Of a stretch of DNA of 64,000 nucleotides, positions 48,016 to 50,917 are shown one piece after another. The stretch comes from Terriglobia bacterium. GTDB taxonomy: Bacteria; Acidobacteriota; Terriglobia; Bryobacterales; Bryobacteraceae. The notes under the pieces were generated by a model. That model did no database searches. It saw nothing but the letters and a program-made list of their open reading frames with translations, and had not been told where the DNA came from. The translations under genes were made by a program, and so were the position numbers. The stretch is from assembly GCA_021325235.1 (NCBI GenBank), contig JAJPHN010000029.1, positions 62,001 to 126,000 on the forward strand, read 5' to 3'. The first letter of the stretch is position 1. The number at the start of each line of letters is the position of its first letter.

Positions 48016-48507
48016 TCTCCCATGCTTTCACCCGATCAGAATCAGCGGCTGAAGAGCGCCGCGCAAAGCGCTGTCGCCTGCGAGCGGGCGACCGATTTGC
48101 CGGCGGAGCTGACCGTCGCGCAGTGGGCGCTCGAGAGTAACTGGGGCACGCATCAACCCGGAAACAACTGCTTCGGGATCAAAGCTTACGAGGGATGTTA
48201 TGGAGTGCAACTACTCCAGTCGACGGAAGTGATCAACGGAGTTCGCACCCCTGTTATCGAGAAGTTCGCGACATTCCCAACGCTCGATGCCTGTTTCGCC
48301 AAGCACGCGAACCTGTTCACCACCGGCAAGCCGTACGCGCAGGCCTGGGCCGCCTACCGCCTCAGCCACGATCTGCATACGTTCATCTGCGAAATCGCCC
48401 ACGTCTACGCGACCGATCCGAATTATGCCAACATCCTGCTGCAGATCCTGGCCATGCCCGAAGTCAAAATGGCGCTGGCTGCAGCGCGCGCGACCATACC
48501 GGCTTAG
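48013..48507 (+). CDS. Glucosaminidase-domain protein (FlgJ/N-acetylglucosaminidase family)
   Basis: 164 residues. A complete GH73-type domain: ELTVAQWALESNWG with the catalytic Glu, GNNCFGIKAYEG, and FATFPTLDACFAKHANLF with YAQAWAAYRLSHDLHTFICE. Hydrolyses the beta-1,4 bond of peptidoglycan or chitin-like glycans. No signal peptide and no cell-wall-binding repeats, which is odd for a wall hydrolase; either it leaves by another route or it works in lysis. A second in-frame ATG is at 48022. Confidence 0.82.
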   Translation: MSPMLSPDQNQRLKSAAQSAVACERATDLPAELTVAQWALESNWGTHQPGNNCFGIKAYEGCYGVQLLQSTEVINGVRTPVIEKFATFPTLDACFAKHANLFTTGKPYAQAWAAYRLSHDLHTFICEIAHVYATDPNYANILLQILAMPEVKMALAAARATIPA

Positions 48508-49025
48508 GGTTGCTGAGCTGTCGAAGCAAGCCGGCGCGCCTGTTTGAGATGTGCATCGAGCCGCGGAAGTGCCCGCCGGGCGTACGTTTTCAGACTTGTG
48601 TTGAATCCGCTATCCGCCTCCCGTTTGTAGGGCACGTAGGCGTTTTCATGCTCGTTGACAACCGTCTTTAAGAATGCGAGATCGAACGATTTCCCCTTAG
48701 ACTTATTCAGACGGCGCACAAAATTCATGTGCACTTCATCGAGAGCGGCCGGCGCATTGGTTCCGGTGCTTTTGGCAATCGCTGTCAGGCGCTTGAGATC
48801 CGTCGCGTGGTCGCGTTCCAGCATGACGGCAAAGCGCTTTACGGCCGGGGACGATGCCTGAAGCTGTGCCATCTGTGCCAGTCGAACATTGAGGAGATCG
48901 GTTTGACCGGCAAAATCGATAAATGCCTTTTCGTCGGAATTGAGCTGTTCCGGAGCGGCGGCGTTTGTTGTCCGGGCTGTGAAAACCGTTGCCAGCAGGA
49001 GAGTTGCTGCGAAAGACCTCATCAT
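48504..49025 (-). CDS. DUF4142 exported protein
   Basis: 173 residues. Signal peptide (SFAATLLLATVFTARTTNA) then a helical DUF4142 (ferritin-like) domain: FIDFAGQTDLLNVRLAQMA, VKRFAVMLERDHATDLKRL, FLKTVVNEHENAYVPYKREA, LPRLDAHLKQARRL. Conserved His/Glu positions could bind metal, but this is unproven. Its end overlaps the glucosaminidase gene by four bases, tail to tail. Confidence 0.82.
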   Translation of the reverse strand: MMRSFAATLLLATVFTARTTNAAAPEQLNSDEKAFIDFAGQTDLLNVRLAQMAQLQASSPAVKRFAVMLERDHATDLKRLTAIAKSTGTNAPAALDEVHMNFVRRLNKSKGKSFDLAFLKTVVNEHENAYVPYKREADSGFNTSLKTYARRALPRLDAHLKQARRLASTAQQP

Positions 49026-49086: not shown

Positions 49087-49116
49087 TTGCACGACCAGCG
49101 CCGAGTGTCCTATAAT
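49087..49116 (+). promoter_or_regulatory. Sigma70 promoter of the cimA leader transcript
   Basis: -35 TTGCAC (49087-49092), 18-base spacer, -10 TATAAT (49111-49116), a perfect consensus -10. Transcription should start near 49123, just before the leader peptide. Confidence 0.75.
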
Positions 49117-49134
49117 GAATCTCTTACAGGTCTC

Positions 49135-49194
49135 ATGCCGGCGATCCTTCAGGGCGCGATTTTGATTAGCGTGGCCATTAGCGGCCCCGCCTGA
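49135..49194 (+). CDS. cimA leader peptide
   Basis: 19 residues, MPAILQGAILISVAISGPA, from ATG 49135 with ACAGG four bases upstream. Seven of 19 codons are Ile, Leu or Val (ATC CTT, ATT TTG ATT, GTG, ATT), the end products or relatives of the cimA pathway. Serves to measure charged branched-chain tRNA rather than as a product. Confidence 0.8.
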   Translation: MPAILQGAILISVAISGPA

Positions 49195-49220
49195 GACCTC
49201 GTTTGCAAATTTCGGATTCG

Positions 49221-49258
49221 AGGCCGCCGGCGGGGAAAACCAGCCGAGCGGCCTTTTT
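49221..49258 (+). terminator. Intrinsic terminator of the cimA attenuator
   Basis: AGGCCGC (49221-49227) pairs with GCGGCCT (49248-49254), extended inside by CGGC/GCCG with one bulged A, followed by TTTTT. GC-rich stem plus U-tract is a textbook intrinsic terminator, 46 bases before the cimA ATG. Confidence 0.85.
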
Positions 49259-49303
49259 GCTTTTGAGCGATTTTCATAAATACTGGCGAAAGATATCAAG
49301 ACA

Positions 49304-50917
49304 ATGCGAGTTTTCACGTTCGACACGACGCTGCGCGACGGCACGCAGGGCGAATCGGTCTCGTTTTCGGTGGACGACAAGATCTTAATTGCTCAGAAAC
49401 TGGACGAGCTTGGTATCGACTACATTGAAGGCGGCTGGCCGGGGTCGAATCCGCGTGACAAGGAGTTTTTCACGCGGGCCAGCCAACTCGCGTGGAAGCA
49501 CGCCAAGCTGACCGCGTTCGGCTCCACCAGATTTGCCAGGAATCCGGTCGACCAGGACCCGAACGTGCGCGAACTGCTGGCAGCAGCCACGCCGGTGATC
49601 TCCATCTTCGGCAAGTCGTGGGATTTCCACGTTCGCACGGCGCTCGGTATCAGCGAAGAAGAAAATCTCGATTTGATCGCCGATACGGTGGCGTATCTGG
49701 TACAGCATGGCCGCGAGGTCGTCTACGATGCCGAACATTTCTTCGATGGCTATAGCGCCAATCCGAAATACGCGCTCCAGACGCTCGAAGCTGCCAGGCA
49801 GGCCGGGGCGCAGGTCCTGTGTCTCTGCGATACCAATGGAGGCACGCTGCCCGAGCGTGTGGCCGAAGTGACCGCAGTCGTGCGTGCTCGCTTCGACGGA
49901 GTTCTCGGAATTCACTGCCACAACGATGCCGAACTGGCCGTCGCGAATACACTGGCGGCGGTTCGCGCCGGGGCGAGCCATGTACAGGGCTGTATCAACG
50001 GATACGGCGAACGCTGCGGCAATGCGAATCTGTGTTCGATCATCCCCAACCTCGAGCTAAAGCTTGGGCACACGACCATCGGGCGCGAGAACCTGAAGCA
50101 TCTGACCAGTGTGGCCCGCTACGTGGCCGATTTGGCGAATCTCTCGCTGCGGCGCGAACAGGCCTACGTCGGCCCGAGCGCGTTTGCCCATAAAGGCGGG
50201 GTCCACGTCAGCGCTGTCATGAAAGACGCGGCCACCTATGAGCACATCCAGCCTGAGCTTGTCGGAAATCGGCAGCGGGTGCTGCTGAGCGATCTCTCCG
50301 GACGCGGGAACGTTGCCTACAAGCTGAAGCAGCTCGGCTTGAAGGAGACCTTGACTGACACAGCCGGCCGCGAACTTCTGCAGCGCATCAAGCAAATGGA
50401 ACATCAGGGATACGATTTCGAATCCGCCGAGGGGACGTTCGAGTTGCTTGTGCGGGAAGCGGCGCATCCGGAGTTTCATCCCTTCGAGGTCGTGCGCTAT
50501 GAAGTTTCAACCAAGCTGCAGCCAGGCGCGGAGGAGACGGTGACAACGGCCGGAGTCACGCTGCGGGTGGGCGACTCCGTTCATTCCTCGACGGCGGTAG
50601 GACACGGTCCGGTGAACGCGCTTGACCTTTGCCTGCGGCAGTGTCTCGCGTCGATCTATCCGGCAATCTCCGATGTTCATTTGACCGACTATAAAGTGCG
50701 AGTGCTCGGCGGCAAAGGTGGCACGGAATCGAAGGTACGTGTTCTGGTCGAATGGACCGATCATCGCCGCAGCTGGGCCACGGTCGGCATCTCGGATAAC
50801 GTTATCGACGCAAGCTGGCGGGCTCTGGTCGACGCCCTGCGCCTCGAGCTGATGCGGCTGCTCGAAAAAAAGAGCGAAGCGGAAAACGCGTCGCTCGATT
50901 TCAGCTGGGCGGTTTAG
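49304..50917 (+). CDS. cimA: Citramalate synthase
   Basis: 537 residues. Condenses pyruvate with acetyl-CoA to (R)-citramalate, the first step of the threonine-independent isoleucine route. HMG-CoA-lyase-like TIM barrel: TFDTTLRDGTQGESVSFSV, YIEGGWPGSNPRDKEFF (diagnostic of CimA against LeuA), GIHCHNDAELAVANTLAAV with metal-binding HCHND, NGYGERCGNANL, and a C-terminal LeuA-type regulatory dimer domain (DYKVRVLGGKGGTESKVRVL). Controlled by the attenuator upstream. Its stop overlaps the end of the opposite gene by four bases. Confidence 0.93.
   Translation: MRVFTFDTTLRDGTQGESVSFSVDDKILIAQKLDELGIDYIEGGWPGSNPRDKEFFTRASQLAWKHAKLTAFGSTRFARNPVDQDPNVRELLAAATPVISIFGKSWDFHVRTALGISEEENLDLIADTVAYLVQHGREVVYDAEHFFDGYSANPKYALQTLEAARQAGAQVLCLCDTNGGTLPERVAEVTAVVRARFDGVLGIHCHNDAELAVANTLAAVRAGASHVQGCINGYGERCGNANLCSIIPNLELKLGHTTIGRENLKHLTSVARYVADLANLSLRREQAYVGPSAFAHKGGVHVSAVMKDAATYEHIQPELVGNRQRVLLSDLSGRGNVAYKLKQLGLKETLTDTAGRELLQRIKQMEHQGYDFESAEGTFELLVREAAHPEFHPFEVVRYEVSTKLQPGAEETVTTAGVTLRVGDSVHSSTAVGHGPVNALDLCLRQCLASIYPAISDVHLTDYKVRVLGGKGGTESKVRVLVEWTDHRRSWATVGISDNVIDASWRALVDALRLELMRLLEKKSEAENASLDFSWAV

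Follow-up and report, generated by a model that had tools for sequence, protein, structure and literature searches.

A predicted ribosome-mediated attenuator before cimA in a Terriglobia bacterium, and its relatives before ilvB

Ribosome-mediated attenuators of the ilv, leu and trp type are known from enterobacteria, such as those of ilvGMEDA, ivbL and leuL. CimA, citramalate synthase, commits pyruvate to isoleucine alone, while the ilvBNC products serve all the branched-chain amino acids. Here, we analyze the leader of cimA in a 64,000-nt stretch of DNA from a Terriglobia bacterium of the Bryobacteraceae (contig JAJPHN010000029.1, positions 62,001 to 126,000 of the forward strand), called the window below. 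We hold it highly probable that this leader is a ribosome-mediated transcription attenuator and that cimA is transcribed when charged tRNA-Ile, and to a degree charged tRNA-Leu, is short. The best reading is that it is tuned mainly to isoleucine. Its parts are the following, in window coordinates.

49087-49116, plus strand: putative sigma-70 promoter read from the sequence, with TTGCAC at 49087-49092, an 18-nt spacer and TATAAT at 49111-49116
49128-49135, plus strand: segment 1, with the A of the leader start codon as its last base; its partner, 49192-49199, opens with the T of the leader TGA
49135-49194, plus strand: leader open reading frame (ORF) MPAILQGAILISVAISGPA, 19 sense codons, ATG at 49135 and TGA at 49192-49194
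49159-49167, plus strand: main control codons 9-11, ATT TTG ATT (Ile-Leu-Ile), in a position conserved across leaders
49173-49186, plus strand: local hairpin GGCC-AUUAGC-GGCC (49173-49176/49183-49186) of the predicted folds, covering the 5′ end of segment 2
49185-49201, plus strand: segment 2, CCCCGCC at 49185-49191 and CCTCG at 49197-49201, across the leader stop codon
49219-49235, plus strand: segment 3, CGAGG at 49219-49223 and GGCGGGG at 49229-49235, partner of segment 2 (antiterminator) or of segment 4 (terminator)
49185-49191/49229-49235 and 49197-49201/49219-49223, plus strand: outer and inner 2:3 antiterminator stems, from sequence and folds
49220-49258, plus strand: intrinsic 3:4 terminator with arms 49220-49231/49243-49255 and five U at 49254-49258, from folds and covariation
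49304-50917, plus strand: cimA, citramalate synthase of 537 amino acids (TIGR00977)

The element resembles the enterobacterial attenuators in the short leader ORF with its control codons, the mutually exclusive antiterminator and terminator, and the terminator placed 5′ of the first gene. It differs from them in having cimA as the target and in its segment 1, which lies mostly 5′ of the ORF and includes the A of the start codon.

The ilvB-II motif of Corynebacterium, the ilvB-OMG motif and the Leptospira ilvB motif are described, in the available part of one report, as a branched-chain-rich upstream ORF with a terminator and an antiterminator before ilvB or ilvBNC; an ilvB-II reporter responds to the medium, and ilvB-II is found once per genome (PMC10272879). 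By the same partial description, our family shares with that group the branched-chain-rich ORF, the terminator/antiterminator pair and the position before ilvB or ilvBNC, but it belongs to another lineage, as compared by description and not by alignment (PMC10272879). Unlike ilvB-II as so described, the present family has members before both cimA and ilvB, and also before leuA or ilvA in single genomes, and its codons vary by the target. In Acidobacteria, premature terminators and attenuators have been predicted genome-wide, almost none with an assigned function in the available part of that study, whereas here a target, codons and helices are proposed (PMC2965389). No earlier report of a cimA attenuator was found in the literature searched, and the novelty of the cimA leader is limited to that literature; the comparative survey of Lopatovskaya et al. 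(2010) may contain related predictions.

A first-pass annotation of the window had read the architecture from the bare sequence, and its parts are all recovered. The claimed TATAAT lies at 49111-49116, and the 19-codon leader has the seven branched-chain codons ascribed to it (four Ile, two Leu, one Val). The 1:2 stem, 49128-49135/49192-49199, is present in the full-length minimum-energy fold; the bipartite antiterminator and the GC-rich terminator with five U are both in the sequence, and segment 2 does run across the leader stop codon. The antiterminator and the terminator arm have bases 49220-49223 and 49229-49231 of segment 3 in common, so that the two helices exclude each other. The leader RNA folds more stably than its shuffles (z of −2.17, with 4 of 200 shuffles equally low), and the local GGCC hairpin is also supported by the averaged pair map of 13 leaders.

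The −35 hexamer TTGCAC is weak, with three of six consensus bases. Of 14 homologous leaders, 11 have TATAAT or TATACT no more than 45 nt from the leader ATG. The assignment of the downstream gene as cimA, which had been proposed on sight, is independently confirmed by the TIGR00977 equivalog at 703.8 bits, where the cut-off is 450. The gene on the 5′ side (48504-49025) lies on the minus strand, opposite to cimA, and hence the terminator does not serve it.

The outer antiterminator helix and the terminator helix are supported by covariation. Our main set has 120 distinct rows, cut by a leader covariance model, aligned with MAFFT and freed of two plain terminators. As this model lacks the 2:3 helix, the rows are unselected for 2:3 pairing. 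Two controls were run: 500 shuffles, which ignore relatedness, and slid helices, which preserve it. The outer 2:3 helix is paired in 91.8% of the cells and has 28 both-side changes against a shuffle mean of 11.1 and maximum of 20; its covariation score of 0.160 compares with a shuffle maximum of 0.138 and at most 0.098 in the slid helices. One slid version of 2:3 gave 24 both-changed cells, but it was 58% paired. The 3:4 helix is paired in 95.3% of the cells, with 85 both-side changes (shuffle mean 20.1, maximum 43) and a score of 0.317, above the shuffle maximum of 0.226 and the slid helices, which stay at or below 0.118.

Compensatory variants of the outer 2:3 helix include CCCCGCC/GGCGGGG, CCCCGCT/AGCGGGG, CGCCGCC/GGCGGCG, GCCTGCT/AGCAGGC and CTCTGCC/GGCAGAG. 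The comparison with homologous leaders that the first-pass annotation proposed as a check has come out in its favor: the Ile-rich ORF is kept, and in the 120 leaders outer 2:3 and 3:4 covary more than in either control. When the count is confined to the 14 cimA leaders, helices 1:2 and 3:4 have six both-side-changed pairs against a shuffle mean of 2.4, and none of 500 shuffles is as high. The 1:2 helix of these leaders (alignment columns 10-15/80-85) is paired in 82% of the cells, with both-side changes in three of its six pairs. A further set of 148 rows was pre-selected for pairing, and its slid controls have as many as 30 both-changed cells, where 37 were observed, so it is the weaker evidence; automatic stop finding lost 9 of 159 rows and gave wrong assignments for a few of those kept, such as the cimA row of genome G006.

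The leader is conserved at cimA. It lies 5′ of the gene in all 15 same-genus genomes where the cimA start was located and also in G024 of another genus. The leader covariance model itself turned up two more, in G512 (the genus of G024) and in G500 (of a third genus), which therefore give no independent support. Left out were G015, whose cimA is interrupted by a contig end, and G008 (73% complete), whose cimA match covers residues 222-537 only and whose search with the leader model gave no convincing match (20.5 bits). The leader before cimA is thereby confirmed as real, its conservation excluding a chance origin. Typical peptides are MLLLIQGGILISLAIHGPA, MLILIQGGILISVAIKGPA and MRKLIEGGIIILVAISGPA. 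The Ile codons of 14 cimA leaders are ATT 50, ATC 9 and ATA 2, and those of the cimA genes at the same loci are ATT 112, ATC 166 and ATA 16; the ATT preference in the leaders may reflect a higher sensitivity or RNA constraints.

To model the switch, leaders were folded to the end of segment 3 at 30 °C, with an assumed ribosome footprint of 14 nt on each side of the P-site. Over 16 leaders, the mean antiterminator probability is 0.24 in the ribosome-free state and 0.61 when the upstream part is shuffled. With a ribosome at codons 9-11 it is 0.67, and 0.68 in the shuffles. The free-versus-stalled difference is larger than that of the shuffles (paired Wilcoxon p=0.004). Since the stalled value matches the shuffles and the free value is far lower, the special feature is the protection in the ribosome-free state.

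The position of the ribosome was followed in the 13 leaders that have 19 codons. The antiterminator mean is 0.61, 0.74 and 0.68 for an A-site at codons 9, 10 and 11; it is 0.38–0.57 at codons 2-8, goes from 0.71 to 0.55 at codons 12-14 and is at most 0.01 from codon 15 to the stop. In the averaged pair map of the 13 leaders, the partners of segment 2 before segment 3 emerges are the 5′ stem and codons 12-14. As the A-site moves from codon 9 to 11, codons 12-14 become covered from partly to wholly. Segment 1 is unusual in that its start-codon stem lies upstream of the ORF and not within it, and pairing by codons 12-14 also protects segment 2, so that the protective role is shared otherwise than in the first-pass annotation.

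The mechanism that we propose runs as follows. Transcription would start about 12 nt 5′ of the leader ATG, with a ribosome trailing the RNA polymerase. When Ile-tRNA is ample, the ribosome would reach the stop codon and cover segment 2, so that 3:4 pairs and transcription stops near 49258. When isoleucine is short, it would stall around codons 9-11 and cover part or all of codons 12-14, the partner strand of segment 2's 5′ part. This would leave CCCCGCC exposed for 2:3 pairing, and the polymerase would continue into cimA. Without a ribosome, upstream pairing would hold segment 2 and the terminator would form. The start site, leader translation, stalling, termination and the regulatory response are all inferred.

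Several observations weigh against this reading. A simple consensus scan for promoters and terminators missed both at the cimA leader, and inspection by eye found no obvious Shine-Dalgarno sequence 5′ of the leader's start codon. For 2:3, the 14 cimA leaders have two both-side-changed pairs against a shuffle mean of 1.7, as high in 282 of 500 shuffles; even so, the 2:3 pairing is reached by 6 and the 2:3 covariation score by 3 of the 500. The inner 2:3 stem has no covariation in the 148-row set, nor has the local GGCC hairpin, which is paired in 87.5% of the cells. Stalls at any of codons 2-14 favor the antiterminator somewhat, so the position is not sharply selective. In the window's own ribosome-free truncated fold, 49136-49143 pairs with 49225-49232 and the 1:2 stem is absent. 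The leader of G006 (L011) has ACG in place of the usual ATG; an internal in-frame ATG there gives a shorter peptide, MKGGILITLAIRGPA.

The classical logic of three ribosome states, absent, finished and stalled, had been claimed for the locus from the outset. The folding model supports it on average, and under co-transcriptional folding only, but the three-state pattern is clear in just 7 of 16 leaders, partial in two (L002, L006) and absent in seven. Among these last, L003, L009, L014 and L027 form the antiterminator without a ribosome, and L007, L008 and L011 hardly form it at all. Full-length equilibrium folding with the footprint was tried as a test of the switch and rejected, the terminator being favored at every ribosome position with a probability of at least 0.51 in L011 and at least 0.79 in the other leaders. 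As equilibrium folds keep the terminator, the switch depends on the co-transcriptional order and on the assumed 14-nt footprint.

The gene context extends well beyond cimA. The covariance model built from the 14 cimA leaders has matches in 27 of 60 close relatives and, at E≤0.01, in 108 of the family's 150 genomes. The 150 genomes contain 115 matches; the context was checked for 109, and the other six are five previously collected cimA leaders and one antisense match. Before ilvB are 101 of the 109, 100 of them assigned by script (within 450 nt) and L279 by reading. Two precede cimA, and one each precedes leuA, ilvA and a gene with weak similarity to the acetolactate synthase small subunit; two more are plain terminators by reading, and one is at a contig end. 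The element is mainly the leader of an ilvB-ilvN-ilvC-cimA operon in this bacterial order. Its description as a cimA attenuator is right in that it stands before cimA, but it is not private to this gene.

Outside the clade with a split operon, which includes the window's genus and is described next, the leader was recognized by eye in 34 of 38 ilvB upstream regions and, within the same order, in 34 of 35. The four without it are G042 (same order, with the stop codon missing at the site) and G056, G058 and G059 (other families). A phylum-wide search of 396 genomes gave 11 with a match: the window's own, one of the same family and nine at 27.7–32 bits, where about four are expected by chance at this threshold. 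No such leader was seen by eye in the 300 nt upstream of the leuA-like genes of 19 relatives (19/19); the two of these genes that were searched both have 2-isopropylmalate synthase as the best match (101 residues each).

In 35 of 36 non-split relatives, ilvB and cimA are on the same strand within 3.5 kb, the exception having them on two contigs; this holds in none of 13 split-clade genomes. Eleven of these 13 have ilvB on one contig and cimA on another, in itself no proof of separation. The two genes are about 2.66 Mb apart on one contig in G024 and 16 kb apart in G009, and in the window's genome genes other than cimA come after ilvC. The 16 split rows of a 35-row cimA tree make one clade (99/96 support, one change). 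The separation of ilvBNC from cimA was thus probably a single event, so the split-clade genomes are not independent of one another.

The codons of the leaders differ along this split. In the last 17 codons, the 14 cimA leaders have on average 4.36 Ile, 0.79 Val and 2.36 Leu, nine ilvB leaders of split genomes 0.44, 4.78 and 3.11, and 34 other ilvB leaders 3.29, 3.26 and 1.00. The cimA leader is the Ile-richer and the ilvB leader the Val-richer in all ten genomes where both were recognized. The split-clade comparison uses leaders picked by eye, with possible bias of the eye. In the automatic set, 107 intact-operon ilvB leaders have 3.67 Ile, 3.74 Val and 1.13 Leu; in this set the cimA leaders do not differ significantly from the intact-operon ones in Ile (p=0.20), and the split ilvB leaders do not differ significantly from the intact ones in Val (p=0.81), with the filter passing just four split-clade ilvB leaders, one of them wrong. 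The ilvB regions of G003, G005, G015, G019 and G054, with partial ilvB matches, were left out.

We favor, with some reserve, the view that an ancestral Ile and Val leader of ilvBNC-cimA was divided with its operon, the Ile codons going to cimA and the Val/Leu codons to ilvBNC, and that in single genomes the family also reached leuA, ilvA and the small-subunit-like gene. The direction in which the operon changed is inferred. It would fit end-product logic for cimA to respond to Ile and for ilvBNC to respond to Val/Leu. In the window's genome (95.7% complete), the IlvA models TIGR01127 and TIGR01124 have no match above cut-off. It contains a 323-codon threonine-dehydratase-like frame at 316.4 bits to TIGR01127 (cut-off 378.75), and because of this shorter relative cimA need not be the sole isoleucine route.

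Other explanations of the conserved leader were weighed against attenuation. An arrest peptide or a trans-acting leader peptide, whose conserved C-terminus (GPA before the stop) stalls the ribosome with isoleucine sensed in the tunnel or acts elsewhere, is improbable. The peptide tail is indeed strongly conserved, also in the intact-operon leaders, many genera ending VIVAGPA. However, the conserved residues coincide with segment 2, where a change has its counterpart in segment 3 even if it alters the amino acid (CGCCGCC/GGCGGCG, CTCTGCC/GGCAGAG), and the split-unit ilvB leaders end GTA, STA, GSA, RTA and the like. The choice of codons also goes with the pathway that the downstream gene serves.

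A constitutive terminator beside a chance ORF, for basal dampening of cimA or as a remnant of an old operon leader free of amino-acid control, would agree with full-length folds that keep the terminator favored and with a modeled switch missing in 7 of 16 leaders. We judge it slightly less probable still, as the ORF frame and codons are conserved at every judgeable cimA locus of the clade, the outer antiterminator helix covaries as well as the terminator, and the codon partition is biased. Least probable is an RNA that binds a metabolite, ppGpp or a tRNA (riboswitch or T-box) with an incidental ORF. Some ilvB genes are controlled by ppGpp riboswitches, according to the available part of the ilvB-II report (PMC10272879). 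The window has no match to a riboswitch, T-box or other known Rfam leader at the gathering threshold, and its conserved region consists of the ORF and two alternative helices with no further aptamer-like part. With relaxed thresholds the window's leader reaches at most 12 bits, and 20 related loci gave ctRNA_p42d at 28.7 bits (gathering 50) in L201 and atpB at 22.6 bits (gathering 37.4) in L278.

With cimA attenuated as proposed, the pyruvate route to isoleucine would join the genes controlled in this way. The proposal would also give a function, a target and a signal to an attenuator family in a phylum where, by the available part of the genome-wide predictions, almost none had one (PMC2965389). 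The intact and split operon versions in related genomes suggest that a translation-coupled sensor can change its amino acid through a few codon swaps with the RNA switch kept. If the sensor was indeed divided with its operon, this would be regulatory subfunctionalization readable at the codon level.

Some minor observations concern the relatives. No ilvB leader was recognizable in 3 of 11 same-genus upstream regions (G002, G006, G008), where it seems degenerate or lost; G002 and G006 retain the cimA leader. A same-family leader in G569 (L278, C95:5064-5189, minus strand) precedes leuA (TIGR00973, 634.4 bits, cut-off 598.7), and this single leuA leader is Leu-rich, GILNLSLLALGLLTGPA. In G501 a related leader (L292, C178:1170-1296) precedes ilvA, which exceeds the TIGR01127 cut-off at 500.7 bits; in G018 another (L157, C18:3435-3581, minus strand) precedes the gene of a 103-aa protein with weak similarity to the acetolactate synthase small subunit (38.4 bits, cut-off 56.9).

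In most of the 19 relatives examined for leuA-like genes (L323-L341), the gene appears divergent from a neighboring frame, which we take to be a LysR-type regulator. A box like CTATAAATTTGCATAATC recurs between the two and is perhaps the operator of the divergent regulator. Likewise, in the window's genus a promoter-like box, CTCTTGCATAAAA..CTTCTAGGCTA, recurs upstream of ilvB (L169, for example), 5′ of the ilvB leader.
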